A DNA stretch of 64,000 nucleotides from an uncultured Pelagibacteraceae bacterium (lineage in GTDB: Bacteria; Pseudomonadota; Alphaproteobacteria; Pelagibacterales; Pelagibacteraceae): positions 1-64,000 of the forward strand of contig CABYGR010000002.1 of assembly GCA_902518595.1 (NCBI GenBank). Direction: 5' to 3'. A program made the translations under genes and the position numbers. Below, one piece after another: positions 8,972 to 60,379 of this stretch; position 1 is the stretch's first letter, and each line of letters begins with the position of its first letter. Below the pieces are notes generated by a model that was not told the origin of the DNA, did not search any database, and worked only from the letters and a program-made list of their open reading frames with translations.

Positions 8972-9086
8972 TTTACCTCAGTTTATAAATTTTATTTTGA
9001 ATAATGAATCATTTAATTTATATACAAATCCATATTTTAGTCTAATTTAAATTATACAATTTTGAATTGAATAAAATATATTTTAC

Positions 9087-35254: not shown

Positions 35255-35379
35255 AAGCCTTATTTTTTAATAAAAAATAATGATAAAATTCACGCAAAAG
35301 TAGAATTATAATTTAATTAATATTTGCTTCTCCATTTTACTTGTGATGTAATTATTTTAATTAATTAGGGGGACATGCG

Positions 35380-35841
35380 ATGACAAAAATTACATTAGAA
35401 GTTAATGGAAAAAAAGTCAGTAAAGATGTTGCAGACCACACACTTTTATCAGTTTTTTTAAGAGATAATTTAAATTTAACAGGAACACACGTTGGTTGTG
35501 ATACTAGTCAGTGTGGGGCTTGTGTAGTTCATGTAAATGGTAAATCAATAAAGAGTTGCTCAACATTAGCGGCGGACATTGATGGTTCTAAAGTGACTAC
35601 AATTGAAGGCTTAGCAAAAGACGGAAAACTTCATCCTATGCAAGAAGCATTTAAAAAGACACATGGATTACAGTGTGGATTTTGTACACCAGGAATGGTT
35701 ATGAGTGCTGTTGATCTATTACAAACAAAAAAAAATCCTAGTGAACAAGAAATTAGAGAATGGTTAGAAGGTAATATCTGTAGATGTACAGGTTATCAAA
35801 ATATAGTTGCAGCTGTAAAAGAAGCTTCAACAAAAATGTAA
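35380..35841 (+). CDS. coxS: [2Fe-2S] small subunit, xanthine oxidase/CODH family
   Basis: [41 protein letters not shown]. Confidence 0.95.
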
Positions 35842-35859
35842 TTTGAAAGGAGAAAATAA

Positions 35860-38238
35860 ATGGCAAGTCTAGTTGGATCAAGGGTTGAAAGAAAAGAAGA
35901 TGGAAGATTTTTACAAGGAAAAGGGAGATACACAGCAGACATTAATATTGCAAATCAAACATATGCTATTTTTGTAAGATCTCCTCATGCAAGAGCAAAA
36001 ATTAAAGGTGTAGATACTTCAAAAGCATTAAAATCATCAGGAGTAGTTGGAGTATTAACAGGTAAAGAAATTGCAGAAGATAAAATTGGAGGTCTAATTG
36101 CTGGATGGGCAATTAGAAGTGAAGATGGCTCTGAAATGAAAGTTCCAGCAAACCCCCCATTAGCAAAAGATGTTGCTAACTTTGTAGGTGAACCTATAGC
36201 AGTTGTTTTTGCAGAAACTTTAGATGAAGCTAAAGAAGGTGCAGAAAAAGTAAAAGTTGATTACAAAATTTTAAAAGCTGTAGTAGATCCATCAGATGCT
36301 ATGAAGAGTGAAGCTATACATGACGGTGTTGATAAAAATCTTTGTTACGATTGGTTGCTAGGTGATAGAAAAGCAGTAGATGAAGCTTTTGCTAAGGCTG
36401 ATAAAATTATTAAAGTTGATTTGATTAATAACAGACTTGTTCCTAATGCAATGGAACCAAGAGCATGCGTAGTGGACTACAATACTGCTTCAGAAGAAAT
36501 TACTTTGTATACCACAAGTCAAAATCCCCATTTATCTAGATTAGTTATGTCTGCATTTGGCGGTGTTGCTCCAGAAAATAAATTAAGAGTAGTTGCTCCA
36601 GATGTTGGTGGCGGATTTGGATCTAAAATTAATGTTTATAATGAAGAAATTGTTTGTAGTTGGGCCTCAAAAAAAATTGAGAGACCAATTAAATGGGTTG
36701 CTGAAAGAACAGAGTCTTTTCTTACTGATACTCATGGAAGAGACCATGTTACTCATGCTGAATTAGCAGTAAGTAATGATGGTAAGTTTTTAGGATTTAA
36801 GAATGAAACAATTGCTAACTTAGGTGCTTATGCAAGAGTCTTTGGAACAGTTACACCAACATATTTGTTTGGACCATGTGCAACAGGGGTTTATACAATC
36901 CCAGCAGCATATTCAAACGTGAAAGCTGTTTATACGAATACTGCTCCTGTTGACGCGTATAGAGGTGCTGGAAGACCAGAAGCAACTTATACAATTGAAA
37001 GATTAGTTGAAAAAGCAGCAATGGAACTAGGTATTGATAAAACAGAAATTAGGATGAAAAATTTTCCATCAGAGTTTCCATTTAAACAAACATTAGTTCA
37101 TACAGTAGACTCTGGTGATTATGTTGCTGGTTTAGAAAAAGCTAAACAAATGGCTGATTATTCAGGATTTGAAGCTAGAAGAAAAAAATCTGAAGCCAGT
37201 GGAAAACTTAGAGGAATAGGAGTTTCATCTTATTTTGAAGCATGTGGTATTGCACCATCTGCTGCAGTTATGTCATTAGGTTGTGGAGTAGGGCTATGGG
37301 AGTCAGCAGAAGTAAGATTTAATCCTACAGGTCAAATATCTGTTTTCACAGGTGCCCACAGTCATGGACAAAGTCATGATACTACATTTGCACAAATAGC
37401 AGCAGATGAATTAGGTGTACCCATGGAAAACATTGATGTTGTTCATGGTGACACGGACAAAGGAACATTTGGAATGGGTACCTATGGTTCAAGATCATTA
37501 ACCGTTGGAGGCATTGCAATTGTTAATGCTTGTAAAAAAATTGTAGCTAAAGGCAAAAGAGTTGCAGCTAAAATGCTTGAAGTTAATGAAGATGAAATTG
37601 AATTTAAGGATGGAGAGTTCGTAGCTTTAAAATCTAATAAGAAAAAAACTATTGGAGAAATAGCTTTTGCTTGTTATTTACCAGGTCAAAGAGATGAAAT
37701 GAAATCTCCAATACCTGAAGGAGATGAGCCAGGTTTAATAGAATCTTCTTTCTTTGATCCTGCAAACTTCTCATTTCCAGCAGGTTCACATATTTGTGAG
37801 GTAGAAATTGATCCTGATACTGGGAATGTAAAAGTAGAAAAATACACAGCAGTTGATGATTTTGGAAGAATAGTAAATCCAATGATCGTTGAAGGACAAG
37901 TTCATGGAGGAATTGCTCAAGGAATAGGTCAGGCCTTGCATGAAAATACTCAGTATGATGAAACAGGACAACTAATGACTGCTTCATATATGGATTATAC
38001 AATGCCAAGAGCAGATAATTTTCCAGAGTTTAATTTAGGTTTTACTTGTACCCATGCAACATCTAACCCACTTGGAGTTAAAGGTTGTGGGGAAGCAGGT
38101 GCAATCGCTTCACCACCAACAGTTATGAATGCAGTAATTGATGCATTAGGTGGTCAAGAAATTTCAATGCCTGCAACAGCTGAAAAGGTCTGGAAAGCTT
38201 GTAAGACATTAAAAAAATCTAACGCTAAAGCAGCATAG
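35860..38238 (+). CDS. Molybdopterin-binding large subunit, form II CoxL-like
   Basis: AYRGAGRPEATY loop (not AYxCSFR of form I CODH); active-site Glu in GVKGCGEAGAIASPP. Confidence 0.92.
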   Translation: MASLVGSRVERKEDGRFLQGKGRYTADINIANQTYAIFVRSPHARAKIKGVDTSKALKSSGVVGVLTGKEIAEDKIGGLIAGWAIRSEDGSEMKVPANPPLAKDVANFVGEPIAVVFAETLDEAKEGAEKVKVDYKILKAVVDPSDAMKSEAIHDGVDKNLCYDWLLGDRKAVDEAFAKADKIIKVDLINNRLVPNAMEPRACVVDYNTASEEITLYTTSQNPHLSRLVMSAFGGVAPENKLRVVAPDVGGGFGSKINVYNEEIVCSWASKKIERPIKWVAERTESFLTDTHGRDHVTHAELAVSNDGKFLGFKNETIANLGAYARVFGTVTPTYLFGPCATGVYTIPAAYSNVKAVYTNTAPVDAYRGAGRPEATYTIERLVEKAAMELGIDKTEIRMKNFPSEFPFKQTLVHTVDSGDYVAGLEKAKQMADYSGFEARRKKSEASGKLRGIGVSSYFEACGIAPSAAVMSLGCGVGLWESAEVRFNPTGQISVFTGAHSHGQSHDTTFAQIAADELGVPMENIDVVHGDTDKGTFGMGTYGSRSLTVGGIAIVNACKKIVAKGKRVAAKMLEVNEDEIEFKDGEFVALKSNKKKTIGEIAFACYLPGQRDEMKSPIPEGDEPGLIESSFFDPANFSFPAGSHICEVEIDPDTGNVKVEKYTAVDDFGRIVNPMIVEGQVHGGIAQGIGQALHENTQYDETGQLMTASYMDYTMPRADNFPEFNLGFTCTHATSNPLGVKGCGEAGAIASPPTVMNAVIDALGGQEISMPATAEKVWKACKTLKKSNAKAA

Positions 38239-38248
38239 GAGGCTAATT

Positions 38249-39034
38249 ATGAAAACATTTAATTATCACGTACCAAAAGCTGTTAAAGAAGCTTCAAAGT
38301 TAGCATCAACTAGTTCTGCTTTTTTAGCAGGAGGTATGACAACTATCCCTTCACTGAAATTGGGATTAGCAACTTACAAAGATATAATTGATATAAAAAG
38401 TATTAAAAAATTGTCTGGTATTAAAGTAAGTGGAAAATCTGTAACAATTGGTGCAACAACTAAACATGCAGAAGTTGCAGCTTCAAAAGAAGTTCAAAAA
38501 GCAATTCCAGCTCTTGCAAAATTAGCAGGGAACATTGGAGATGCACAAGTTAGAAACAGAGGCACAATTGGTGGATCAATTTCTAATAATGATCCTTCAG
38601 CTTGTTATCCTTCAGCTTGTATGGCTCTTAATGCTACAATTCACACTAATAGCAGAAAAATTTCTGCATCAAAATTTTTTACAGGAATGTTTGAAACAGC
38701 TCTAAAAAAAGGTGAACTTGTTGAAGCAGTTGAATTTGAAGTTCCTGAAAAAGCTGATTATCAAAAACACCCAAATCCAGCATCAAGATATGCTATTATT
38801 GGAGTTTTTGTTGCTAAAAATAAAAAAGAGGTAAATGTTGCAGTAACAGGTGCAAAATCTTCTGTTTATATAGATAAAGATTTATCAAAAAAATTAACTT
38901 CAAGCTTTTCTTCATCATCAATTGAAGGCATTAAGTTAGATCACTCAGAAATGAATTCAGATATGCATGCATCATCTGAATATAGAGCTAATCTAGTTTC
39001 TTTATATGCAAAAAAAGCTGTTGAAGCTTGTTAA
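38249..39034 (+). CDS. coxM: FAD-binding medium subunit, CoxM-like
   Basis: FLAGGMTTIPSLKLG; GDAQVRNRGTIGGSISNNDPS. Confidence 0.93.
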   Translation: MKTFNYHVPKAVKEASKLASTSSAFLAGGMTTIPSLKLGLATYKDIIDIKSIKKLSGIKVSGKSVTIGATTKHAEVAASKEVQKAIPALAKLAGNIGDAQVRNRGTIGGSISNNDPSACYPSACMALNATIHTNSRKISASKFFTGMFETALKKGELVEAVEFEVPEKADYQKHPNPASRYAIIGVFVAKNKKEVNVAVTGAKSSVYIDKDLSKKLTSSFSSSSIEGIKLDHSEMNSDMHASSEYRANLVSLYAKKAVEAC

Positions 39035-39052
39035 TTAGAATTTATTTTTCAA

Positions 39053-39382
39053 ATGAAAAACTCATTTGATGAAAAAATTTTAGAAGAAGCACATGACTGG
39101 GTTAAATTAAATCAAAAAGTTGTTTTAGCCACAGTTATTCAAACATGGGGCTCTTCCCCAAGACCAACCGGTAGTAGAATGATAGTGAATGAGAAGGGTG
39201 ATTTCTCTGGTTCGGTTTCAGGTGGATGTGTAGAGTCAGCAGTCGTAAGAGAGTGTATTGGCTTAATTAAAGATAACAAACCTTGTAAAAAAATTGAATT
39301 TAAAGTTTCAAATGAAAGTGCTTGGGAAGTAGGACTTGCTTGCGGTGGTGAAATAGCCGTCTATTTAGAACAAGTTAATTAA
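39053..39382 (+). CDS. XdhC/CoxI-family N-terminal domain protein
   Basis: TWGSSPRPTGSRMIVNEKGDFSGSVSGGCVESAVV. Confidence 0.9.
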   Translation: MKNSFDEKILEEAHDWVKLNQKVVLATVIQTWGSSPRPTGSRMIVNEKGDFSGSVSGGCVESAVVRECIGLIKDNKPCKKIEFKVSNESAWEVGLACGGEIAVYLEQVN

Positions 39383-40065
39383 TGAAATTACAAACATTAA
39401 GATCTATTATTGAAAAAAAGAAAAATAAATCTGAATTTGCAATAATTACAAATCTATCTACAGGTGAGAGTGAAATTTTTGAAAAAGATAAACCGTTAAG
39501 CAAAGAAATGGAGACTCACTCAAATCAAATAAAAGAATTTTTTAAATCAAAAAAAAATGGAGTTATAGAAAATACAGAAATATTTGTAGAAACATATGTA
39601 TTACCAATAAAAGTTATTGTAGTTGGAGCAGTTCATATAGCTCAATATTTAGTAGACTTCGCAAAGAGTTTAAATTTTGAAATTTCTATAATAGATCCAA
39701 GAGGATATTTTGCGTCAGAACAAAGATTTCCTGATATGAAAATAATCAATAAGTGGCCAAATGAAGCTTTTAAAGAAATTGATACAAATGAGAATACTGC
39801 ATTAGTTGCTTTAACACATGATCCAAAAATAGATGATCCAGCATTACAACATGCGTTAAAGAAAAAATTTTATTACATAGGAGCACTGGGAAGTAAAAAA
39901 ACTCACGAAAACAGATGTCAAAGATTAAAAGAGGCTGGATTTAGCGATGAGCAAATTAATTTAATTCATGGACCAATTGGAATTAAATTAGGTGGTAGAT
40001 CTGCCCCTGAGATAGCTTTATCAATTATTGCTCAATTAGTTTCTGAAACTTATAATAAAAAATGA
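39382..40065 (+). CDS. XdhC Rossmann-domain protein
   Basis: IVVGAVHIAQYLVDFAK; ALTHDPKIDDPAL; YIGALGSKKTHENR. Confidence 0.9.
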   Translation: MKLQTLRSIIEKKKNKSEFAIITNLSTGESEIFEKDKPLSKEMETHSNQIKEFFKSKKNGVIENTEIFVETYVLPIKVIVVGAVHIAQYLVDFAKSLNFEISIIDPRGYFASEQRFPDMKIINKWPNEAFKEIDTNENTALVALTHDPKIDDPALQHALKKKFYYIGALGSKKTHENRCQRLKEAGFSDEQINLIHGPIGIKLGGRSAPEIALSIIAQLVSETYNKK

Positions 40066-40991: not shown

Positions 40992-41566
40992 TGATTAAAG
41001 CAATTTTTCTTGCAGCTGGTCAATCTAAAAGACTTAAATCTGAAAATAAACTCACTAAATTATATAAAAAAACTCCATTAATAAATCATTCATTAAAAAC
41101 ACTACAAAAAAGTAAAGTAAACAAAGTTATTATTGTACTTGGTCACGATCATAAAAAAGTTAAAAAAATAATTAAAAAAAATAAAAAAAATATTTTTATT
41201 TATAATAAAAATTTTAAAAAAGGTATGGCATCATCTATAAAAGTAGGTTTAAGAAAAATAACTAAAAATGATGAAGGATTTATAATTGTTCAATCGGATA
41301 TGCCGTTTATAAAGAAAGTTGATATCAATAAAATTTTTAATTCAATTAAGTTAAAAAAGTTTTTAGTCTATGTTTTAAAGTTTAAAAACAAAATAGGTAA
41401 TCCAATAGGTTTTGATATTTCTTTGATCAAAAAATTTAAAAATATTAAAGGCGAATTTGGTGCAAAATTTATGGTCAAAAGACTTAAGAACAGAACAAAA
41501 TTTATTAGGATAAGTACAGCTAAATCTTTTAAAGATTTTGATAAGGCTTCAGATTTTAGAATCTGA
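40991..41566 (+). CDS. MocA/MobA-like nucleotidyltransferase
   Basis: IFLAAGQSKRLKSENKL; GMASSIKVGL; VQSDMPFI. Confidence 0.8.
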   Translation: MIKAIFLAAGQSKRLKSENKLTKLYKKTPLINHSLKTLQKSKVNKVIIVLGHDHKKVKKIIKKNKKNIFIYNKNFKKGMASSIKVGLRKITKNDEGFIIVQSDMPFIKKVDINKIFNSIKLKKFLVYVLKFKNKIGNPIGFDISLIKKFKNIKGEFGAKFMVKRLKNRTKFIRISTAKSFKDFDKASDFRI

Positions 41567-42130
41567 TTTATTAAAATTGATTCTAAAAAGTAAAAGAATT
41601 ATTAAAATTATCAGAAAAATAAGTGGTTTAAAAAATATAGTTTTTGATAACCAAATAAAATGAAGTACCCCAAAAATAGAAATTATATAAATTAATCTAT
41701 GAATTTTTTTCCAATTTTGTTTTAAAATTCTTATCATTTTGTCTGATGAAGTGATTGCAAGAGGAATTAATAAAAGCCATGCAGAAAATCCAATAAATAC
41801 AAATTTCTTTTTAAGAACGTCATCAATCAATGGCTTAAAATCGAATCTATAATCAAGTCCAACATAACTTAACATATGTATTGAGGCATAGAAAAAAGCA
41901 AACAATCCAAGCATTCTTCTAAATTTAATCCATTCTAAAGATTTTGTAATTTTTTTGAGGGGCGTCATTGAGAGAGTTAAAAAAATAAAAATAAGTGTCC
42001 ACTCGCCAAAATGGTTTATAATCCTATCTACAGGTTCTGGCCCTAATTTATCGTAAAATATTTGATAAGTAATTATATAAATTGGCCAAAGGGATATTAA
42101 AAAGACAGCAGGCTTAAAATAATTTTTCAA
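41549..42130 (-). CDS. msrQ: MsrQ (YedZ) heme-containing membrane subunit
   Basis: Ferric-reductase-like TM protein with SLEWIKFRRMLGLFAFFYASIHMLSY; adjacent to msrP. Confidence 0.9.
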   Translation of the reverse strand: MKNYFKPAVFLISLWPIYIITYQIFYDKLGPEPVDRIINHFGEWTLIFIFLTLSMTPLKKITKSLEWIKFRRMLGLFAFFYASIHMLSYVGLDYRFDFKPLIDDVLKKKFVFIGFSAWLLLIPLAITSSDKMIRILKQNWKKIHRLIYIISIFGVLHFIWLSKTIFFKPLIFLIILIILLLFRINFNKSDSKI

Positions 42131-42136
42131 TTTATT

Positions 42137-43036
42137 TTAGTAATTCTTTTTTAAATCCATACCACTATAAAGATTAGCAACTTGATCTCCATAGCCGTTG
42201 AACATCAAAGTTTTTATCCTTGGAGCTAAAATACTTTCTCCAATTACTCTCTCTGTAGCTTGAGACCATCTTGGATGATCAACTTCAGGATTTACGTTAG
42301 AGTAAAAACCATACTCTCTCGGTGAAGCATTCTTCCAGGCAGTGTTTGGCATATTTTTTGTTAATTTAACTCTAACAATTGATTTCGCACTTTTAAAACC
42401 ATACTTCCACGGTATGAATATTCTTAATGGTGCTCCATTTTGATTTGGCAAAGGTTTGCCATATAAACCTGTTACAACTGTCGTAAGAGGGTGCATTGCT
42501 TCATCTAATCTCAAACCTTCAATATAAGGCCAGTTTAAAACAGGATATCTTTGACCAACCATTTCTTCAGGATTATAAACAGTTTCAAATTCAACAAATT
42601 TTGCTGATGGTTTAATCTGAACTTTATTAAGTAATTCGCTTAATGAAAAACCTAACCACGGTATCACCATTGACCAACCTTCAACACACCTAAGTTTCAT
42701 AATTCTTTCTTCAGATTTAATTGCTAGAATTTCTTCAATAGGGAGCTCTAAAGATTTTTCGACTTCACCTTCAATTTTAATACTCCAAGGTCTTGTAGTA
42801 AAATTTTTTGCTCTTCTATGAGGATCACTTTTACCAGTACCGAATTCATAAAAGTTATTATAGGTTGTTATATCCTCATAACTATTTGGTTCATTTAGAT
42901 TACCGGCTTTAGCATTTATTAATGGAACTGAGCTTAATGTGAGTGCACCTAGTCCATAGCCCATAGATTTAATAAAAGATCTTCTGTCATTATAAATTTT
43001 TTCAGGAGTAATTTCCGAATATTTAAATTTTTTCAT
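42137..43036 (-). CDS. msrP: MsrP (YedY) periplasmic methionine sulfoxide reductase catalytic subunit
   Basis: Tat motif RRSFIK; LRCVEGWSMVIPWLGF; NGAPLRIFIPWKYGFKSAKSI. Confidence 0.94.
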   Translation of the reverse strand: MKKFKYSEITPEKIYNDRRSFIKSMGYGLGALTLSSVPLINAKAGNLNEPNSYEDITTYNNFYEFGTGKSDPHRRAKNFTTRPWSIKIEGEVEKSLELPIEEILAIKSEERIMKLRCVEGWSMVIPWLGFSLSELLNKVQIKPSAKFVEFETVYNPEEMVGQRYPVLNWPYIEGLRLDEAMHPLTTVVTGLYGKPLPNQNGAPLRIFIPWKYGFKSAKSIVRVKLTKNMPNTAWKNASPREYGFYSNVNPEVDHPRWSQATERVIGESILAPRIKTLMFNGYGDQVANLYSGMDLKKNY

Positions 43037-43475
43037 TGTTTATTGGATTTCCTTTTAACCAAGCACTATCTTCATTTTCGTAATGTTCTTTTTTCCATAT
43101 TGGAGATCTTTTTTTAATTTCTTCAATTATATATCTTGAAAGCACATAAGCTTGATCACGGTGTTTGCAAGCGACTGCGATAATTATGCTTATCTCTCCT
43201 AAGTTTAGACGTCCTTTGGCATGTTCTATAAAAACTGCTTTATCTTTAATATTTAACTTTTGATCTGCTTCATTATAAATTTCCTCAAAACTTTTAATCA
43301 CCATTTCATCGTGACTATCATAAGTTATTCCTGTTACTGTTTTATTATCGTTAATATTTCTTACAGTTCCTAAAAAATAAATTGATGCTCCAAACTTTGA
43401 GTCTTTAATAAATTTTTCAGCGTTTGAAGTAAGTATTTTCTCTTTTTTAAAATCTACTATTTTTGTATGAAGCAT
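43023..43475 (-). CDS. moaE: Molybdopterin synthase large subunit MoaE
   Basis: GASIYFLGTVRN; SPIWKKEHYENEDSAWLKGN. Confidence 0.92.
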   Translation of the reverse strand: MLHTKIVDFKKEKILTSNAEKFIKDSKFGASIYFLGTVRNINDNKTVTGITYDSHDEMVIKSFEEIYNEADQKLNIKDKAVFIEHAKGRLNLGEISIIIAVACKHRDQAYVLSRYIIEEIKKRSPIWKKEHYENEDSAWLKGNPINNEKI

Positions 43476-43744
43476 TAACCTCCCCCGATAGGAGGTATAA
43501 TACCAATCTTTTGATCTTTTGTGATTTTATAATTGTCGCTAATTATTTCGTTATTTTCTGAACAAAAAGCTGAAGATTTTACAACTTTGATAAAACTCTC
43601 ATTACCTTTAAAATTTTTATCTAAATATTTAATGATTTCGTTTCTTAAATCATCTACTGAAGCTTTATCTTGAACCTTAAGTTCTAAATGACCTTTATCA
43701 CTAAAATCTCTACTAGCACCAAACAATTCTAATTTGATTTTCAT
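43475..43744 (-). CDS. moaD: Molybdopterin synthase sulfur carrier MoaD
   Basis: Small beta-grasp protein ending IPPIGGG; adjacent to moaE. Confidence 0.88.
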   Translation of the reverse strand: MKIKLELFGASRDFSDKGHLELKVQDKASVDDLRNEIIKYLDKNFKGNESFIKVVKSSAFCSENNEIISDNYKITKDQKIGIIPPIGGG

Positions 43745-44211
43745 TTTTTGACCTTAGATGAAAATTTTAAATTTTCATAATTGAATTTAGATTTATTCTT
43801 ATTAATAAAATCATCCATTAACTTGACTTTTTCATTTTCAAATTCTGCAACTTTTCTTTCATTTAGATCTACATACAAAGCTAGAATTTCAATTGTTGAG
43901 GCTAGGAATTTTTTTTCTTTGTGAATCATTTCCATTTTATATTGAAGTCTTTTTTTATCATGATCAAAATAAACACAATTAATATCTACTTCATCATTTA
44001 GTTGAAGCTCTTGATTGTAAGTTATGTGAGACTCTACAATCATTGTACTTTTCTTAGTTGTTTTTGCTGAGTGCTCACCCATCTGAAAAATATTATTTAA
44101 TGTATCAGCACCATATTTATCAAACATTAATAGATAATATGAAACATTCATATGATCGTTGTAATCAATCCAATCTTTAATTACTTTTTGGGTACTTAAA
44201 TAAACTGACAT
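43741..44211 (-). CDS. Acyl-CoA thioesterase-like hotdog protein
   Basis: DWIDYNDHMNVSYYLLMFDKYGAD typical of hotdog thioesterases. Confidence 0.8.
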   Translation of the reverse strand: MSVYLSTQKVIKDWIDYNDHMNVSYYLLMFDKYGADTLNNIFQMGEHSAKTTKKSTMIVESHITYNQELQLNDEVDINCVYFDHDKKRLQYKMEMIHKEKKFLASTIEILALYVDLNERKVAEFENEKVKLMDDFINKNKSKFNYENLKFSSKVKK

Positions 44212-44217
44212 TAAATA

Positions 44218-44763
44218 TTAAAAAATATTTTTTAGGAACTTAGGTAGACCATCTGGATTTTTCCATAATCCACTTTTTCCACCTTCTTTAATTAACAACT
44301 TGACGTTATCAATTTTCAAATGGGGATTTACTATTTTACTTAAATCATAAATAGTTATTAACGCAGCATTAACACCCATGATTGCTTCCATTTCAACACC
44401 TGTTTTAGCAACTGCAGATACTACACAAAAAACTTCAAGTGAATTATCAACTTCATTCATTATAATTTTAGTAGCAGTATGATCAATTGGAAGTGGGTGA
44501 CATAAAGGAATTAGTTCACTTGTTTTTTTAACCCCTAATACAGCCGATACCTCAGCCAAAGTAATTGGATCTCCTTTAGGCATCTTTTTATTCTTAATTA
44601 AATTAAAAACTTCTTTTCCTACATAAATTTTTCCAGAAGCTAATGCTCTTCTAAATGTTTCTTTTTTTGAAGAAACATCAACCATATTAAAAGAGTTTTT
44701 TTGAAATATTTCTTTTGCCCAATCTTTGAGTTCTTCTTGATTAACAATCTTTAAATTTTTCAT
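44218..44763 (-). CDS. moaC: Cyclic pyranopterin monophosphate synthase MoaC
   Basis: MVDVSSKKETFRRALASG; LIPLCHPLPI; GVEMEAIMGVNAALITIYDL. Confidence 0.95.
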   Translation of the reverse strand: MKNLKIVNQEELKDWAKEIFQKNSFNMVDVSSKKETFRRALASGKIYVGKEVFNLIKNKKMPKGDPITLAEVSAVLGVKKTSELIPLCHPLPIDHTATKIIMNEVDNSLEVFCVVSAVAKTGVEMEAIMGVNAALITIYDLSKIVNPHLKIDNVKLLIKEGGKSGLWKNPDGLPKFLKNIF

Positions 44764-45756
44764 TTAACCACCAGTCTTTGAAAGATTTTTTGTTAATCCA
44801 GTTTCTCCAAGCTCAAGATAATGAGATTCTTTTTTAAACTTCATTTGTCCCAAAATTAGTTCTTTTAATTCTTCAGTTTGATCATCTTTTTGTAACAAAT
44901 GTCTTATACTTATTCCAGTATTTCCAAACAAACAAAGTCTCAAGTCACCTTTTGATGTAATTCTAAGACGATTACATGATTTACAAAAATCTTTAGAATA
45001 TGGCGCAATAATTCCAAACTTACCTTTGTAATCTGGATTTATATAATTTAATGATGGACCTGCATCCTGGCCTAAGGTTTGATAAATCCACTTATTTTCA
45101 ATTAAGTAATTTTTGAATATCTTAGATGAAATATGATATCTATTAAAATAATCTAAATTATCTCCAGTTTGCATTAATTCAATATATCTAAAATTTACTT
45201 TATTAATTTTTATATATTCAGCCCAAGAATCAAAATCTTTTTTAGAAGAATTAACACCATTTAAAAGAACTGCATTAATTTTAATATTATCAAAATTTAA
45301 ACTTTGTAAAATCTCTATACCTTTTAGAATTTCAGGTAATCTGTCATGTTTTGTAATACTTTTAAATGTTTCCCTATCTAAACTATCAATACTAATATTA
45401 ATTCCATCTAAACCACTATCAATTAGTAACTTTGCTTTTTGATCAAGATGATATCCATTCGTTGTAATGACAATTTTTTTAATAGATGTTTCATTTTTTA
45501 AAATTTTTACAATTTCATAAAAATCTTTTCTAACTGTTGGTTCTCCACCTGTTAATCTTATTTTCTGAACTCCTAATTCAGAAAATCCTTTAGCCAACCT
45601 TCTAATTTCATCTATGTTGAGAAATTTTCTATTGTCACTCTTATCTGCTTGATAACCATTGGGTAGACAGTATCCGCATTTAAAATTACATACCTCAGTG
45701 ATGGACATTCTTATATAAGGAAATTTTCTTCCAAAGTTATCTTGCAAATGTTGCAT
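44764..45756 (-). CDS. moaA: GTP 3',8-cyclase MoaA
   Basis: Radical SAM CNFKCGYC; C-terminal CKSCNRLRITSKGDLRLCLFG; ends GG. Confidence 0.96.
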   Translation of the reverse strand: MQHLQDNFGRKFPYIRMSITEVCNFKCGYCLPNGYQADKSDNRKFLNIDEIRRLAKGFSELGVQKIRLTGGEPTVRKDFYEIVKILKNETSIKKIVITTNGYHLDQKAKLLIDSGLDGINISIDSLDRETFKSITKHDRLPEILKGIEILQSLNFDNIKINAVLLNGVNSSKKDFDSWAEYIKINKVNFRYIELMQTGDNLDYFNRYHISSKIFKNYLIENKWIYQTLGQDAGPSLNYINPDYKGKFGIIAPYSKDFCKSCNRLRITSKGDLRLCLFGNTGISIRHLLQKDDQTEELKELILGQMKFKKESHYLELGETGLTKNLSKTGG

Positions 45757-45905
45757 AAAATAAACTTATACTAGAATTAATCATTAATAAATTTAAATAA
45801 ATAGTAAAACTCAATAATGAATTTCAACCAGAAATTGTAAATTATTTTTTTTATATTTACTTTTTTTATTTTTGATAAAATACTTACTAATTGGAGGTCT
45901 TTTTT

Positions 45906-47123
45906 ATGAGCAAAAATAAATCTAAACTTAATTTAAATCGAAGAAATTTTTTAACTGGAACTGCAACACTAGCGGGTATTGCTGCAACGGCTTCAGTCGT
46001 TCCTATAACTATTGCTAATGCAAATCATAATGAAGGGAAAAAAGGATTACCTGATTTTATAAATTGGAAAGATAGAGATGCTCTAATTGTACACTCAGAT
46101 AAAGGTATTGAAACTCATAGAAGCGCAATAGGTGAGAGTTTAATAACACCAAACAGAAATGTTTATATAAGAAATAATATGCCTACAATGACAGATCAAC
46201 AAATTGGGGATAGGAAAAATTGGAAAGTTTCTATAGAAGGCGTTAAAAATCCAAAAACGTTTTCATTAGCTCAACTTCAAAAATTAGGTCATACGACTAT
46301 GGCAACTATCTTACAGTGTTCAGGAAATGGCAGAGGTTTTTTTGAACATAAAGTTAGAGGATCTCAATGGGAGACAGGAGCTGCAGCTTGTATTTTTTGG
46401 ACTGGTGTCCCTATGAAAACAGTAGTTGAGGCTTGTGGAGGGATTAATAGTGAAGCAATTTTTATGACTTCTGCGGGAATTGATCATGAACCAACAGGAT
46501 TAGATCCTAAAAAAGCTATGATAGAAAGATCAGTACCTAAAAAAGTATTTAAAGATGCAATGTTAGCATGGGAAATGAATGGTGTACCAATACCAAATGC
46601 ACATGGAGGACCATTAAGAATGATTACTCCAGGTTACTTTGGAATAAACAATGTGAAACATCTTGGAAAAGTAGCCTTTACTTCTAAAGAATCTTCTGTG
46701 AAGTACATGAAATCAAGTTATAGAATTTCTCCTATTGGAAAAAAAGGATCACAATATCCTTCTTGTTGGGAAATGCCTGTTAAATCATGGATTACAAGAC
46801 CAACAGACGAAACTGGAACTGTAAAAGCAGGAAAAGTTCAAATCGTTGGTGTTGCTATGGGAGGAACTAGAAAAGTAAGAGGTGTGAAAGTTTCTGTAGA
46901 TGGTGGTAGTAGCTGGAAAAAAGCGAAGTTTATAGGTCCTGATCTAGGGAAATATGCTTGGAGACAATTTGTACTAGAGACAACTTTAAGTGCTGGAAAA
47001 TATAATATTGCTAGTTTGGCTTCAAATGGTTCAAAAAGACAACCTGAACTAAGAATGGAAAATAGAAGAGGTTACGCACATAATGGTTGGAAAGACCATA
47101 GTGTTAATATTACTGTAGTATAA
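45906..47123 (+). CDS. Sulfite oxidase-family sulfite dehydrogenase, molybdopterin subunit (SorA/SoxC-like)
   Basis: Tat motif RRNFLTG; Mo-ligand Cys in ILQCSGNGRGFF; GVKVSVDGGSSWKKAKF dimerisation domain; start at MSKNK preferred. Confidence 0.88.
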   Translation: MSKNKSKLNLNRRNFLTGTATLAGIAATASVVPITIANANHNEGKKGLPDFINWKDRDALIVHSDKGIETHRSAIGESLITPNRNVYIRNNMPTMTDQQIGDRKNWKVSIEGVKNPKTFSLAQLQKLGHTTMATILQCSGNGRGFFEHKVRGSQWETGAAACIFWTGVPMKTVVEACGGINSEAIFMTSAGIDHEPTGLDPKKAMIERSVPKKVFKDAMLAWEMNGVPIPNAHGGPLRMITPGYFGINNVKHLGKVAFTSKESSVKYMKSSYRISPIGKKGSQYPSCWEMPVKSWITRPTDETGTVKAGKVQIVGVAMGGTRKVRGVKVSVDGGSSWKKAKFIGPDLGKYAWRQFVLETTLSAGKYNIASLASNGSKRQPELRMENRRGYAHNGWKDHSVNITVV

Positions 47124-47149
47124 AAGACCAAAATAGTTAAAGTTAATTA

Positions 47150-47479
47150 ATGAAAATTAAAAGTTTTTTATTAATTTTACTTTTTTTTATAATATCTAAA
47201 ATTCATATTTCATATGCTGATGAAGCAAAAATGAAAAAGGGTTTAGAAATATTTAATGAAACTGCGGGATGTGCTGGGTGCCATGTTTTAAAAGCTGCTG
47301 GTGCAGAAGGGAACATAGGTCCAAATTTAGATACTGTATCAAATTTAACAATAGAATCTATTACCGATATTGTTACTTATGGTCTTGGTGTTATGCCAGC
47401 TTTTGGAGAGGGAGAAATTTTAACTAAGGAAGAAATAGATATAGTATCTTTCTATGTTATGAACTCTGTTAATAAATAA
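47150..47479 (+). CDS. Exported monoheme cytochrome c (SorB-like)
   Basis: Signal peptide; CAGCH heme site; downstream of sulfite dehydrogenase gene. Confidence 0.85.
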   Translation: MKIKSFLLILLFFIISKIHISYADEAKMKKGLEIFNETAGCAGCHVLKAAGAEGNIGPNLDTVSNLTIESITDIVTYGLGVMPAFGEGEILTKEEIDIVSFYVMNSVNK

Positions 47480-47522: not shown

Positions 47523-47846
47523 TTATTTTCCAACTGGTCTATAAGATGCAGCAGCTTTAGAAGCAATTTCAGCAGCTTTATTAAAGTCTACAGACTCCAT
47601 AATAGTCATATCTTTAATAGTTCCTGTTGCTTCCATAAGCATTTTCATTCCTGCAGCAGTTTCAAAATTTGAACCTTCAACGATAGCTATAAAATCATAA
47701 GCTCCTCTTAAAGTCATCATTTCAATTAATTTTGCTCCTGCAGCTTCAGTTATTTTTTTTGCAGCTTCTTGTCGGTTGTCAGATGGATTTTTTACAAATC
47801 CAGCTAAACCTTGTTCAGTATATCTCCCTAGTACTACAAATTTCAT
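47523..47846 (-). CDS. GYD domain-containing protein
   Basis: KFVVLGRYTEQGLAG; RGAYDFIAIVEG layout. Confidence 0.8.
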   Translation of the reverse strand: MKFVVLGRYTEQGLAGFVKNPSDNRQEAAKKITEAAGAKLIEMMTLRGAYDFIAIVEGSNFETAAGMKMLMEATGTIKDMTIMESVDFNKAAEIASKAAASYRPVGK

Positions 47847-54304: not shown

Positions 54305-55111
54305 GTGCTAATGTCAAAATCTATTAATTACAAAGCTTATTCTAAATTTATTGAAAATTTAGCAAAAAAAATGACTAAATTTTATTATTCAAAATTGAAT
54401 AAGCCTTTTAAAACATCAAATAAATTAAAGGGAAAAGGATATGATCCAGTGACAACTGCTGATAAAGCATTTGAAAAATTTATTAGAAAAGAAATTAAAA
54501 ATAAATACCCTGATCATCAAGTGATAGGTGAAGAATTTGGCCATAAAAAATCTAAAAGTGATTATTCTTGGGTTATTGATCCGATTGATGGAACAAGATC
54601 ATTTGTTATAGGCAATCCTACATGGAGTAATTTGATATCTCTAAATTACAAAGGTAATCCAGTTGTAGGTCTTGCAAATTTTCCAATTCTTAAAAAATAC
54701 TATTTTAATACTTCCATAAATTCAGCATATGTTTCAGAAAATGGAAAAAAAAGAAGAATAAAGATTAATAGTAAGGCAACTTTTTCAAATATGAAATTGT
54801 CAGCTGCTTTTCACGGTAGTTTATCTCTAAATCAGCAAAAAAAAATACCCCAAATATTAAAACGAATGCAATTTCCTTGCTCAGATGCTCTAAGTTATTC
54901 TCATTTCACAGAAGGTAAACTTGATATTGTTATCCAATGTGGAAATAAAATTTGGGATATCCACGCTTTGATTCCAATAATTAGAGCTGCAGGAGGTATA
55001 GTTACGACTTGGAAAAATGATGATGCTAAAAAGGCAGGAAATATAATTTGCTCAGCAAATAAAATACTCCACAACAAAATGCTTAAAATTTTAAAACCTG
55101 TATCTAAGTAG
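54305..55111 (+). CDS. hisN: Inositol monophosphatase family/histidinol-phosphatase
   Basis: DPVTTADKAFEKFIR; VIGEEFG; WVIDPIDGTRSFVIG; KIWDIHALIPIIRAAGG. Confidence 0.87.
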   Translation: MLMSKSINYKAYSKFIENLAKKMTKFYYSKLNKPFKTSNKLKGKGYDPVTTADKAFEKFIRKEIKNKYPDHQVIGEEFGHKKSKSDYSWVIDPIDGTRSFVIGNPTWSNLISLNYKGNPVVGLANFPILKKYYFNTSINSAYVSENGKKRRIKINSKATFSNMKLSAAFHGSLSLNQQKKIPQILKRMQFPCSDALSYSHFTEGKLDIVIQCGNKIWDIHALIPIIRAAGGIVTTWKNDDAKKAGNIICSANKILHNKMLKILKPVSK

Positions 55112-55439
55112 TTTTTCCAAGCAGGTTGACTATTAACACTCCTGAAATTATTAAAATTAGACCAATGATAGTATAAAGATCTGGCATTTGATTAAATTTA
55201 AATATTCCTACAATTGTCGTAGCTATTATACATAGGCCTGCAAACGAAGCATAAGTGATGCCAACAGGAATAGTTTTCATTACAATAGACAATGTAAACA
55301 TACAGCCAACTATTGTTATTGCTGTTAAAAGACTTGGTATTAACGATGTAAAACCATCTGCACTTTTGGCAAAACCGTTTGCTGCAGTACCTAAAATAAC
55401 TGCAAATATAAGAACAATGTATGCAATTATATTACTCAC
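55104..55439 (-). CDS. Small multidrug resistance (SMR)-family membrane protein
   Basis: Four-TM; SMR-like IPVGITYASFAGLCIIATTIVGIFKF...SGVLIVNLLGKTT; TM1 Glu replaced by Val. Confidence 0.85.
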   Translation of the reverse strand: MSNIIAYIVLIFAVILGTAANGFAKSADGFTSLIPSLLTAITIVGCMFTLSIVMKTIPVGITYASFAGLCIIATTIVGIFKFNQMPDLYTIIGLILIISGVLIVNLLGKTT

Positions 55440-55455
55440 GATTTAAAGAATATTC

Positions 55456-55677
55456 TTATTTAGTAATTTTATCTACAAATTTTTGCATGATAGGAGCTAC
55501 TATTGTTGTTGCTATCAATGCAACTGGTAAGCTTACAGACCAAGCTTTAAAAAATCTTTTATAATAAAGATTATCGTAACCAGTATTTATATATGTAATT
55601 ATAAGTGTCATGAGTAAACTCATACCCAGACCCATAAAAAATATAAATAATAAATTAGAATATTTTTTAGGAAACAT
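55456..55677 (-). CDS. DUF2798-like small membrane protein
   Basis: Two hydrophobic segments; FFMGLGMSLLMTLIITYINTG...FFKAWSVSLPVALI. Confidence 0.75.
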   Translation of the reverse strand: MFPKKYSNLLFIFFMGLGMSLLMTLIITYINTGYDNLYYKRFFKAWSVSLPVALIATTIVAPIMQKFVDKITK

Positions 55678-55682
55678 TATTA

Positions 55683-56234
55683 TTATATACTCTCTTTTTT
55701 TATTTGTATTTGAAGTTTTTCAATCATAATTAAAGGTGATTTCATATTAGGATGAATTTTGTGTGCTTCAATATAACTATTAATTGCTTTTTGATAATTT
55801 TTTAAAGCAGTTTGTACTAAACCCTGACCTGATAAAGCGCCAAAATGTCTATTTTCGATTTCAAGAACTTTATCTATATCTGCTTGGGATAATTCATATT
55901 CTCCCATTAAATAAAGGACAGTAGCACGTTTGTTCCACGCTTCAGCCCACTTTGAGTCCATTTCAATTGTTTTTGTAAACGTTTCGTAAGCTGTTTTAAG
56001 ATTATTTTGAGACATGTAAAAAGACCCGTCTGCCAAAAGAGCTGTTAAACTATTTTCTGAAGGATGAGTAGTCCATAGTTCCCATATCTTAGACTCAATT
56101 TCCTTAGATTCTTGATAATTAGTTGTACTTTTTAGTTGATCAAATAATTTATCAATTTGGTTTTGATGATTACTATCAGCGTAAGAAAAAAAAGAATAAG
56201 TAAAAAAAACAGTAATAATAAATATTTTTTTCAC
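55683..56234 (-). CDS. Exported TPR protein
   Basis: Signal-like N-terminus; TPR-like AWNKRATVLYLMGEYELSQADIDKVLEIE. Confidence 0.85.
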   Translation of the reverse strand: MKKIFIITVFFTYSFFSYADSNHQNQIDKLFDQLKSTTNYQESKEIESKIWELWTTHPSENSLTALLADGSFYMSQNNLKTAYETFTKTIEMDSKWAEAWNKRATVLYLMGEYELSQADIDKVLEIENRHFGALSGQGLVQTALKNYQKAINSYIEAHKIHPNMKSPLIMIEKLQIQIKKESI

Positions 56235-56567
56235 TTATTTAGAAAGTTTTGTAGCTCCTGTTTCTTGATATACTACCTTTCCATCTTTAAATTTATAATA
56301 AGTCATAACAGCTTCTTTATTACCATCATTAAAAGTTACCATAGAATGTTCGAAACCAATTTCATCATTTTCAAAAAGTACTCTTAAATTATTTTTTTTA
56401 ACATCTTTCATACCAACCCAACCAACTACATCTTTCTTAGTTAAGCTTTTACCAGATGAATGCATCAAAAATTGATAGTCATCATGTATTAATTCTTCTG
56501 CTCCAGCGGTATCACCCTCATTTACAATTTTTGACATTTTTTCTATTATTGACATTATTCTCCCCAC
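56235..56567 (-). CDS. NTF2/SnoaL-like protein
   Basis: VNEGDTAGAEELIHDDYQFLMHSSGKSLTKKDVVGW; fold-level resemblance. Confidence 0.7.
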   Translation of the reverse strand: MGRIMSIIEKMSKIVNEGDTAGAEELIHDDYQFLMHSSGKSLTKKDVVGWVGMKDVKKNNLRVLFENDEIGFEHSMVTFNDGNKEAVMTYYKFKDGKVVYQETGATKLSK

Positions 56568-56905
56568 ATTCCGTGAAACTCATAAACTACAGCTGGTTTA
56601 TCTCCTACTACCCATCCATCATGTCCAGGCTGAATAGAATATGCGTCTCCAGCTTTATAAGTTATTTCAGTTCCATCATTATGTTTTGCACAAACAGCTC
56701 CTGAAACAATTACACCAAGATGTGTTGCCTGACAGCTATCACCCCCGACTGTTGGTTTAATATCTTTTGACCATTTCCATCCAGGCTGTAGAGTAAGTTT
56801 CATTACCCTTTGGTTTCCAACTTTTACAGCTTCTATTTTTGCATTATTAAAATTATCATTAACTTCGTCTGCTTTTTCGAAAGATTTAACTTCTACTCCT
56901 GCCAT
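56555..56905 (-). CDS. Cupin-domain protein
   Basis: LQPGWKWSKDIKP...THLGVIVSGAVCAKHNDGTEITYKAGDAYSIQPGHDGWVVGD. Confidence 0.82.
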   Translation of the reverse strand: MAGVEVKSFEKADEVNDNFNNAKIEAVKVGNQRVMKLTLQPGWKWSKDIKPTVGGDSCQATHLGVIVSGAVCAKHNDGTEITYKAGDAYSIQPGHDGWVVGDKPAVVYEFHGMWGE

Positions 56906-56920
56906 AACCTCTCCTTTTAT

Positions 56921-57337
56921 TTAGACGTATATTTTATCAGCTAAACCGTAACAAAGTACAGCACTTAAAATGGTTAAAACTAATGGAGCATAGATTGCTT
57001 CATCAGAAGTTTTATCAGTATGTCCAAGTTTATTTATTTTTGTACTATAAAAACCAACTATAAATGCTGATAAGTTTTGCAAGAATATTAGATTAAAGAA
57101 AGCCCAAGTAGCCTCTAAACCATTTGGCCTGATGAAACCCACATAAATTGCCATTACAGTTGATCCAATAAATATAGATCCAAAAAATCTTACAATCCCA
57201 GCACCTGTATTATGCATTCCATATTGATTTAAAAAAGATTGTGTTTGAAAAACACATCTAAACCCATAGTAAGCAAAGCCTATAAAGTGTATTAGAAATA
57301 CAACTAAATAAATTATTCCATTAAATTTTTCTATCAT
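56921..57337 (-). CDS. Uncharacterised integral membrane protein (about 4 TM)
   Basis: ORF with multiple hydrophobic helices, tightly packed in operon. Confidence 0.75.
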   Translation of the reverse strand: MIEKFNGIIYLVVFLIHFIGFAYYGFRCVFQTQSFLNQYGMHNTGAGIVRFFGSIFIGSTVMAIYVGFIRPNGLEATWAFFNLIFLQNLSAFIVGFYSTKINKLGHTDKTSDEAIYAPLVLTILSAVLCYGLADKIYV

Positions 57338-57349
57338 ATCTTAAATTCC

Positions 57350-57658
57350 TTAACTAAATATTGGCCTAATCTCATCTTCAATAGTACCTTCTATTGCAAC
57401 TTCTTTCAATTGCTCTAAATGTTTTATATATTCAGGATCTGCAGACATTTTAGCGTCAGCATCATTATCACCTTCAAACATAGGTCCTATTAAAGTTTCT
57501 CTTATTGTTCTCGGGTCTCCACCCATTTGAAAAGAAAAGTAGACATCATGATTAGGATAATATTTTTTTCTAACTGCAGCTAGACCTTTTCCAATTTCCA
57601 TAGCTTTTCCCAGGCCATCATCTTTTACTCTCATTGTTCTTGTATAAATCACTTTCAT
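57350..57658 (-). CDS. Uncharacterised small protein, possible dimeric alpha/beta-barrel fold
   Basis: ORF in tight operon; MKVIYTRTMRVKDDGLGKAMEIGKGLAAVRKKYYPNHDVYFSFQMGGDPRTI; fold is inference. Confidence 0.65.
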   Translation of the reverse strand: MKVIYTRTMRVKDDGLGKAMEIGKGLAAVRKKYYPNHDVYFSFQMGGDPRTIRETLIGPMFEGDNDADAKMSADPEYIKHLEQLKEVAIEGTIEDEIRPIFS

Positions 57659-57690
57659 ATTTAACCTTCCTTTTTTTTATTAATCTTTAC

Positions 57691-57975
57691 TTATTTAACT
57701 TTTGTTAAATCATAGATTGAATAGCTATCTAAAACAGCATCCATGATAGGTTTTGATACTTCAGTTCCTTCAATAAATTTGTGTAACGCAGGTTCATCAG
57801 TACAAAATATTTTGAACATTACAGTACTTTTATCTGGTGTTACCGTTCCAATAGTTTTTTCTACTACTGCAACTTTAGCTCTTTCTGCTAAACCTTCTGG
57901 TGATTGCATAAATCCCATAAATTTTTCAAACATACCTTCTTTTAATTTAGCCACTACCAACATTTCTTTTTCCAT
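57691..57975 (-). CDS. Uncharacterised small protein, possible ABM-like dimeric alpha/beta-barrel fold
   Basis: ORF in tight operon; MLVVAKLKEGMFEKFMGFMQSPEGLAER; fold is inference. Confidence 0.65.
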   Translation of the reverse strand: MEKEMLVVAKLKEGMFEKFMGFMQSPEGLAERAKVAVVEKTIGTVTPDKSTVMFKIFCTDEPALHKFIEGTEVSKPIMDAVLDSYSIYDLTKVK

Positions 57976-57992
57976 TTTTTCCTCCTTGTTTG

Positions 57993-58367
57993 TTAATATA
58001 TTCCTGACTCTGCTATTTTCTTAATTTCATCTTTAGATCCAGAAATTAATTTAAAGATAAAATTATCACATTCTTTGGTTGTTTCTTCTTCGTATGGTTT
58101 ACCGTAACGAATATCGACAACTTTTAATAATTCTTTATTGAGTTTTTCTTCCTCAACACCTTCTTTTAGCAAATAAGAACTTAAAAACTTTTTAGCTGCG
58201 AATGAGTGCACAATCTTTTCTAATTTAAGCTCTCCTTGGGGTATCATACTATTAGCATAGTAAATTCCAGTGCATTCTATAGTTTTAGATTTATCGCTAT
58301 CATTTATACCTGCAAAAGTAACGCCACTAATGATTGTAAAGAATAAAACCATTAAAATTTTTTTCAT
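57993..58367 (-). CDS. Exported hypothetical protein, paralogue of the adjacent ORF
   Basis: Signal peptide; INDSDKSKTIECTGIYYANSMIPQGE aligns with neighbour. Confidence 0.75.
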   Translation of the reverse strand: MKKILMVLFFTIISGVTFAGINDSDKSKTIECTGIYYANSMIPQGELKLEKIVHSFAAKKFLSSYLLKEGVEEEKLNKELLKVVDIRYGKPYEEETTKECDNFIFKLISGSKDEIKKIAESGIY

Positions 58368-58369
58368 TA

Positions 58370-58741
58370 CTAATATAATGTTTGGATTACTTTTTTTACT
58401 CTCTCAGCTCCATTAGGAATTAAAGCTTCTACAAATGAATGACACTGATCAGTTTTAGCTTTGTCATATTTTGAGCCATAATGTTTATCTACTGCTTTAT
58501 TAACTCCTTCATCCCAATCTTTTTCAGGAATACCAACTTCAAGAGCATATGCTTTAAGGACTTTCACAGTTGATATAGATTTTTCTTTCATTTTGTACTC
58601 AAATTCTTCACCAGGCGGAAGAAAGTAGTTTGCCATATAGATCCCAGTACAATCCCATGCTTTAGCTTTATCTCCATCACTCATTTCGGCATGAACAGAA
58701 GTGAAAACAAAAAAAGAAATAATTAAAATAATTTTTTTCAT
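58370..58741 (-). CDS. Exported hypothetical protein, paralogue of the adjacent ORF
   Basis: Signal peptide; MSDGDKAKAWDCTGIYMANYFLPPGE; two conserved Cys. Confidence 0.75.
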   Translation of the reverse strand: MKKIILIISFFVFTSVHAEMSDGDKAKAWDCTGIYMANYFLPPGEEFEYKMKEKSISTVKVLKAYALEVGIPEKDWDEGVNKAVDKHYGSKYDKAKTDQCHSFVEALIPNGAERVKKVIQTLY

Positions 58742-58808
58742 AAGTGTATGTGTTAATTAATATTATTCTAAAAATGTAACGATTTTATTACATTGCTGGT
58801 ATGCGATA

Positions 58809-59810
58809 TTATAACCAGCTAGGAACAGGTAGGTTTTTTTCCTCTAAAAAAGATTTATTAAACATCTTGGAGTTGTACTTGTCAGATTTGTCACAGAGTA
58901 TAGTTACAATAGTTTTTCCTGGACCTAACTCTTTTCCAAGTCTAATTGCTCCTGCAATATTAATTCCACAGCTTGTACCTAAGCTTAATCCCTCATTTTG
59001 AATTAAATCATAAAGAATAGGAAGAGCTTCATGATCATCAATTGAGAAAGCACCATCAATTTTTGCATTTTCAAAATTTTTGGTAATTCTACTAGAGCCA
59101 ATTCCTTCAGTAATTGAGTTTCCTTCTGATTTTAATTCACCACTCTTTATATAGTTATAAAGAGCTGAACCTTTGGGATCAGATAAATAAATCTTTATAT
59201 CTTTATTCTTTTCTTTGAGAGCATTACTAACTCCTGAAATTGTTCCACCTGTTCCTGATGAACAAACAAACCCATCAATCTTGCCCTCAGTTTGTTCCCA
59301 AACTTCTTTTCCAGTTCCTTCATAATGACCTTTAGCATTAGCGGTGTTATCGAATTGATTAGCCCATATTACTCCATTATTATTAGTAGGGCTTAGCTCA
59401 TCAGCTAATCTAGCAGCAACTTTTACATAATTGCCATCATCTTTATAAGGCTTTGCTGGAACTAACCTTAGTTCTGCACCTAAGTTTCTTAAAGTATCTT
59501 TTTTCTCTTGAGTTTGATTATCATTCATTACAATAATTGTTTTATAACCAAGTGAATTACCTAACAAACCTAATCCAATACCTGTGTTACCCGCTGTACC
59601 CTCAACAACAATACCACCTTTAGAAATCAATTTTTTTTCTTGAGCATCTTTAATTAAAGCAAGAGCAGCTCGATCTTTCACAGATCCACCTGGATTTAAA
59701 AATTCAGCTTTTCCATAAATATTACATCCTGTAATCTCAGACGCTGCTTTTAATTTTATTAGAGGGGTATTACCAATCGAGTCAATAAAATCATTTCTAA
59801 TATTTGTCAT
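58809..59810 (-). CDS. cysK: Cysteine synthase A
   Basis: IGNTPLIKL; NPGGSVKDRAAL; GTAGNTGIGLG; SSGTGGTISGV. Confidence 0.93.
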   Translation of the reverse strand: MTNIRNDFIDSIGNTPLIKLKAASEITGCNIYGKAEFLNPGGSVKDRAALALIKDAQEKKLISKGGIVVEGTAGNTGIGLGLLGNSLGYKTIIVMNDNQTQEKKDTLRNLGAELRLVPAKPYKDDGNYVKVAARLADELSPTNNNGVIWANQFDNTANAKGHYEGTGKEVWEQTEGKIDGFVCSSGTGGTISGVSNALKEKNKDIKIYLSDPKGSALYNYIKSGELKSEGNSITEGIGSSRITKNFENAKIDGAFSIDDHEALPILYDLIQNEGLSLGTSCGINIAGAIRLGKELGPGKTIVTILCDKSDKYNSKMFNKSFLEEKNLPVPSWL

Positions 59811-60379
59811 TATTCTTTTTCTTCATCAGTAACAGCATAAGGTTTAAATCCTTTTGATGCATCCCCAACTTTTTTTGCGGGAATACCTGCCATAATAGAC
59901 TTTTCTGTTACATTTTTAGTTACTACTGAATTAGATCCTATTAAAGAATTTTTACCTATTGTTATAGGACCTAATATTTGAGCACCTGAGCCGACTACAA
60001 CATTATCCTCTAAAGTCGGATGCCTTTTCATATCTCTTTGGTCATTTGAATTAATGCTTGGTGCAATTCCACCTAAGGTAACATTATGATAGATAGTCAC
60101 ATTGTCACCAATTTTAGATGTTTCTCCAATTACCACTCCCATACCATGATCGATAAAAAAATTTTTTCCTATTTTTGCCTTAGGATGAATTTCTATTCCA
60201 GTTAAAAATCTTGAGAATTGAGAAATTATTCTAGCAATCAAATCAAATTTAGCTAAAGAGAAGAAATGAGCGATCTTATGAAAAAAAATAGCTTTCACCC
60301 CTGGATAAGTTAAAATTAAACTTAACTTAGATTTTGCCGCAGGATCTCTGTCAATTATAGATTGCAAATAATCATTCAT
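59810..60379 (-). CDS. cysE: Serine O-acetyltransferase
   Basis: Left-handed beta-helix hexapeptides; [29 protein letters not shown]. Confidence 0.94.

Follow-up and report, generated by a model that had tools for sequence, protein, structure and literature searches.

Do ten small, closely spaced genes behind the cysE and cysK genes of a SAR11 bacterium form one functional system, or do they merely share a transcript? The question is raised by positions 58741 to 55104 (minus strand) of the window, by which we mean the whole 64,000-nucleotide stretch of contig CABYGR010000002.1 that was analysed; its genome, from an uncultured Pelagibacteraceae bacterium, is a SAR11 (Pelagibacter) genome whose close relatives are likewise genomes of Pelagibacteraceae. 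The operon occupies a slot that is bounded by cysEK on one side and by a convergent inositol-monophosphatase gene on the other. An original prediction, made from the letters alone, had proposed the ten genes as a candidate undescribed system, and our analysis bears this out in part: the genes recur in relatives as an ordered set, but the set is not fixed, as its composition varies, its genes reassort and none of them is obligatory. With somewhat less than even confidence, we favour the reading that the locus is one transcription unit in which a biochemical core is combined with exchangeable accessories, and which handles small molecules. The comparisons between genomes suggest a core of ab1, ab2, cupin and NTF2, perhaps together with TM4. 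The features, in operon order and with their flanks, are the following.

58809..60379 (-): cysK and cysE, conserved upstream flank on the operon strand (synteny)
58742..58808 (-): leader separating cysK from the first operon gene, conserved even where slots carry very different cargo
58370..58741 (-): exp1, exported helical protein with two invariant cysteines and no known family (AlphaFold2, AF2, pLDDT 87)
57993..58367 (-): exp2, paralogue of exp1 (32% identity in alignment)
57691..57975 (-): ab1, dimeric alpha+beta-barrel subunit of the ABM/NIPSNAP type, putative core gene (AF2 and Foldseek)
57350..57658 (-): ab2, highly conserved orphan family, putative core gene (dN/dS 0.042)
56921..57337 (-): TM4, membrane protein of about four transmembrane (TM) segments (co-occurrence and distance correlation with ab2; homologue in the HIMB59-lineage locus L188)
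56555..56905 (-): cupin, putative core gene (weak Cupin_2 match, 20.7 bits against a cut-off of 27.2)
56235..56555 (-): NTF2/SnoaL-like protein, start ATG 56555, putative core gene (weak SnoaL_2 match, 19.7 bits against a cut-off of 27)
55683..56234 (-): exported TPR protein, SAR11 accessory (Pfam TPR above cut-off; in 22 of 66 slots)
55456..55677 (-): DUF2798 membrane protein, often present in the slot (PF11391, 67.4 bits against a cut-off of 23.5)
55104..55439 (-): SMR-like protein with four TM segments (PF00893, 55.7 bits against a cut-off of 23.7, full-length match)
54305..55111 (+): inositol-monophosphatase-family gene, convergent downstream flank (PF00459, 159.9 bits; synteny)

Operon layout and slot content across SAR11

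All ten predicted open reading frames (ORFs) were recovered on the minus strand from 58741 to 55104 in one operon layout, with intergenic gaps, computed from the ORF coordinates and given in operon order, of 2, 17, 32, 12, 15, -1, 0, 5 and 16 bp. The 13-bp overlap that had been predicted for the cupin and NTF2 genes turned out to be a start-codon artefact: homologues of the NTF2-like protein begin with MSI or MSL, which matches the ATG at 56555, so that the true overlap is 1 bp (TAATG). The first operon gene lies 67 bp from cysK, and at the other end the 3' ends of the SMR-like and inositol-monophosphatase-family genes overlap slightly in convergent orientation. Homologues of each operon gene were found in the same slot of other SAR11 genomes, and the within-family median dN/dS (ratio of nonsynonymous to synonymous substitution rates) is 0.04-0.13 in every slot family tested. 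The ten are therefore not chance ORFs, and by this comparison all of them are under purifying selection; they are presumably co-transcribed.

To describe the slot across SAR11 we used two sets: 66 slots with both flanks that were found through ab2 and are hence biased towards it, and 34 genomes of the genus Pelagibacter that were sampled by cysK and thus not chosen by slot content. The ab2-found slots hold largely co-directional small genes in 44 combinations. The cysK-sampled genomes show 31 combinations, 29 of the 34 carrying at least four slot families, and in both sets together pairwise gene order agrees to 96.2%. Hereby, the genes are not scattered among relatives, but recur as a set in one orientation and one order. 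An HTCC1062-like genome holds only two SMR-like genes in the slot, and no slot family was recognised behind cysK in five genomes of other genera. Further cargo comprises DUF1330, DUF3764, SnoaL_2, DSBA-like, cupredoxin, GYD, CMD, tautomerase and exported cupin genes, that is, mostly small single-domain enzyme-like families. The DUF1330, DUF3764 and GYD proteins belong to the same fold class as the ABM/NIPSNAP barrels, and a profile-profile comparison among slot families gave a weak relation between DUF1330 and DUF3764. Another GYD-domain gene lies elsewhere in the window (47523-47846, minus strand). The genome names used here, HTCC1062, HTCC7211 and HIMB59, are labels that we take to be correct, the first of them also by its coordinates in PMC2704228.

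The quartet in the HIMB59 lineage and its proteins

In our samples of the class and the phylum, SAR11 genomes and one genome labelled HIMB59 were the only ones with ab2; in the latter, an operon of ab1, cupin, ab2 and NTF2 stands by itself in other surroundings, with no cys genes nearby. Of 120 genomes sampled from the HIMB59 order, 7 have ab2. The four of these that belong to the HIMB59 genus each have the complete quartet ab1-cupin-ab2-NTF2, one genome of another family of the order (L191) carries cupin-ab2-NTF2-NTF2, and in L188 a TM4 homologue stands beside the quartet. The quartet genes and TM4 are contiguous in the window (56235-57975), and because the quartet stands alone in the HIMB59 lineage we regard this segment as the putative core; only core genes recur outside SAR11. 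In phylogenetic trees, of which several nodes are weakly supported, the HIMB59 copies of NTF2 and ab1 fall among old SAR11 types, so that the split into types would be old and a transfer between the SAR11 and HIMB59 lineages is likely. Two further genomes of the HIMB59 order have ab2 alone, divergent from a pdxJ-like gene (L192, 7581-7895; L193, 7379-7693), and the L191 genes lie at the same place as this lone ab2.

Two small alpha/beta-barrel proteins had been predicted, which was confirmed for ab1 and is only probable for ab2. The AF2 model of ab1 (pLDDT 93.5), built from an alignment of window and related-locus sequences only, matches many NIPSNAP/ABM/LsrG structures in Foldseek with probability 1.00 and TM scores of about 0.5-0.65, and its fold neighbours include PA0709 with glyoxal bound. 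While ab1 thus shares the fold of these dimeric alpha+beta barrels, both ab1 and ab2 lie outside all Pfam and NCBIfam families, in which five of the ten operon proteins have no convincing family. A search with the ab2 profile against the PDB gave sub-threshold matches only, none of them credible.

The labels cupin and NTF2-like stand on sub-threshold Pfam matches (Cupin_2, SnoaL_2). Since the cupin lacks the classical metal motif HxHx(3,4)E in motif 1, a role as dimethylsulfoniopropionate (DMSP) lyase was set aside; its conserved columns are SC...H.G....G and PGHD. A close relative of this cupin stands alone outside the cysK slot of some SAR11 genomes, beside a gene of the GFA (glutathione-dependent formaldehyde-activating-like) family (L206, 8196-8915; L209, 1273-1985). 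Small ABM, cupin and SnoaL cyclases and oxygenases also make up aromatic polyketide tailoring sets, which resemble the operon in grouping the same kinds of small folds. However, the sequence families of the slot differ from theirs and are joined by exported and membrane partners, and no polyketide synthase was seen in the slot or the neighbouring genes.

Possible function and competing readings

If the locus does combine a core with accessories, the small cytosolic core proteins ab1, ab2, cupin and NTF2-like would be the ones to bind a small organic compound, probably a reactive or hydrophobic one, and to convert it, by analogy with cofactor-free barrel, SnoaL-type and cupin enzymes that perform such conversions elsewhere. 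TM4 would be their probable membrane partner. Tasks at the cell envelope would in SAR11 fall to exp1, exp2 and the exported TPR protein, together with the DUF2798 and SMR-like proteins of the membrane. The neighbouring genes and the cargo let us guess at reactive carbonyl or quinone-like substrates. The capture, modification or export of a small molecule, as originally proposed, fits the predicted folds.

On the envelope side, the assignments of the TPR, DUF2798 and SMR-like proteins all pass their Pfam cut-offs, and the two predicted exported paralogues are indeed 32% identical with two invariant cysteines. Neither by sequence nor by fold (AF2 model, from an alignment that included several rows from regions of other genomes) did exp1 find a significant match in the PDB, and in a class sample of 289 genomes it is restricted to Pelagibacter. 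A profile-profile comparison of the slot families aligned the exported ones over only about 20-27 columns, probably signal peptides. DUF2798 is present in 23 of the 34 cysK-sampled genomes, and the SMR-like gene, the commonest slot member, occurs on the operon strand in 29 of them. The SMR-like protein matches PF00893 throughout and keeps the Tyr60 and Gly90/Gly97 positions of the SMR family (EmrE, Qac, SugE), but it has Phe or Tyr at Trp63, falls below every NCBIfam cut-off and, in 88 of 88 slot copies, has Gly at the position of EmrE Glu14; TM1 of the window protein is without any Glu. This makes it truly atypical, as predicted, and it should thus not use the proton-exchange mechanism known for SMR proteins. 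The residue that it lacks is the one that drives export in known SMR proteins.

Several findings weigh against a core with accessories. So variable a composition does not suit a single obligatory pathway; of the five cysK-sampled slots with the cupin, four lack ab2, and elsewhere the cupin occurs without any other slot gene. Pairwise distances of one slot gene hardly correlate with those of another or of cysK, so that most partners are not co-inherited; ab2 and TM4 give the strongest value, 0.44, and cysE and the phosphatase gene, one on each side of the slot, give 0.51. Reassortment of single genes is itself part of the favoured reading. Within-family identity of ab1 and NTF2 is strongly bimodal, mostly above 70% or at 40-60%, and among 51 slots left after dereplication each of the two main ab1 types is found with each of the two main NTF2 types (13, 14, 17 and 3 slots). 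From these combinations of types and the nearly uncorrelated distances, it follows that single operon genes have had separate histories within a lasting frame. The likely mechanism is homologous recombination between the conserved neighbouring genes. An integron gene-cassette array does not fit, since attC sites would not fit into gaps of 0-32 bp; no search aimed at integrases was made.

The same data would suit a grab-bag locus: behind cysEK there would be an expressed site open to gains of single genes, with a shared transcript, unrelated functions and an order due to recombination anchored in the neighbours. We consider this possible, though rather doubtful. It would account for the 31 combinations in 34 genomes, the near-zero correlations, the lack of an obligatory member and the HTCC1062-like genome that keeps only two SMR-like genes. 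Against it stand the quartet alone in the HIMB59 lineage in another context, the bias of the cargo to few small enzyme-like folds, and co-occurrence: in the cysK-sampled set NTF2 accompanies ab1 in 20 of 20 cases and TM4 is found in 10 of 10 ab2-bearing genomes, counts that ignore kinship among the genomes and to that extent favour the core less. This pairing and the distance correlation suggest TM4 as the probable partner of ab2. Taking the core with accessories further, the locus could be a combinatorial pathway operon: behind a fixed leader and in a fixed order, single enzymes (barrel, NTF2 or cupin) and envelope proteins would be exchanged in SAR11 populations, thereby changing which small molecules a streamlined cell transforms or expels. 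The genes ab1, ab2, cupin and NTF2 would then encode an undescribed catalytic set common to SAR11 and the HIMB59 lineage. This stronger version we hold to be unlikely.

Less probable still is a thiol-linked detoxification operon for reactive carbonyls or quinone-like electrophiles, drawing on cysteine from cysEK. Hereby, the position behind cysE-cysK and near glyoxalase and aldehyde dehydrogenase genes, the GFA-family gene adjoining the stand-alone cupin and the glyoxal-bound fold neighbour of ab1 would be explained. Yet the related operon of the complete genome G057 lies 0.3 Mb from an intact cysK, cys genes are missing from the surroundings of the HIMB59 operon, the neighbours may have nothing to do with it, and likeness of fold gives no substrate. 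That the locus serves phage defence or another conflict and undergoes diversifying turnover, as deeply diverged gene versions in a hypervariable slot and exported components might suggest, is very improbable: PADLOC matched no system, its hits being a generic one to TPR (E 1.5e-4) and a marginal one to ZorA (E 0.046), searches found ab2 absent from viral contigs and ab1 from phage records, purifying selection is strong, and the cargo is enzyme-like. An origin from a phage or plasmid was likewise rejected: beside those empty searches, the cupin matched only distant plasmid cupins of less than 60% identity.

Known variability, the leader and other window genes

Variable islands are already known from SAR11, in which four hypervariable regions (HVR1-4) were described and polymorphic gene insertions and deletions also proposed (Wilhelm et al. 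2007, PMC2217521); the tables of that paper give SAR11_0042-0054, 0524-0568, 1162-1173 and 1214-1221 (PMC2217521). The cysK slot adjoins SAR11_0786 and is by gene number outside HVR1-4, probably because the HTCC1062-like genome holds so few genes here. It resembles HVR1-4 and replacement flexible genomic islands in its variable content between conserved flanks, consistent with homologous recombination. What sets it apart is that it is one operon, with a leader and a gene order that are largely fixed, and that exchange affects its genes singly and not as a whole island. A literature search, with subscription papers mostly outside its scope, found no paper describing the slot, and as far as we checked a fixed-order operon that is shuffled gene by gene is new. 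SAR11 variation may thus act on single genes inside one operon, beyond whole islands. SAR11 is among the most abundant bacterial groups of the ocean and has streamlined genomes, in which about 4 kb of uncharacterised genes that most of the genus retains, and that are under purifying selection, can be expected to be of use. With its conserved flanks and differing single-gene combinations the locus constitutes a natural experiment. The HIMB59 quartet offers a minimal gene set for expression and assay.

About 60 bp of the leader are conserved despite widely differing downstream content. They contain an imperfect palindrome, ATGTAAC-N6-GTTACAT (58774-58793), followed by a T run, and fold into a modest hairpin; judged by this pattern, the leader may be the cysK terminator, or an operator or promoter. 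No Rfam family reached its cut-off, promoter and terminator scans gave chance level, and a regulon search with the motif in 8 genomes returned scattered matches near the control count. In G057, no slot family is recognised behind the intact cysK. The related operon (ab1, F7, ab2, exp, TM4, NTF2, DSBA, DUF2798) instead follows directly behind a recognisable leader and a short open frame that matches the final 52 residues of cysK, an arrangement that is the signature of a rearrangement. The leader thus travels with the operon and probably belongs to it. This relocated operon (L205, G057:C1:655000-673000, 7059-10150) has sugar-nucleotide genes on one side and dctP and aldehyde dehydrogenase genes on the other.

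Elsewhere in the window, positions 34673-40065 (plus strand) have by eye the look of a CO-dehydrogenase-type molybdenum hydroxylase cluster (CoxG-like, 2Fe-2S, large and FAD subunits, XdhC-like), and positions 41549-47479, likewise by eye, hold molybdenum-cofactor genes together with MsrPQ-like, sulfite-dehydrogenase-like and cytochrome c genes.

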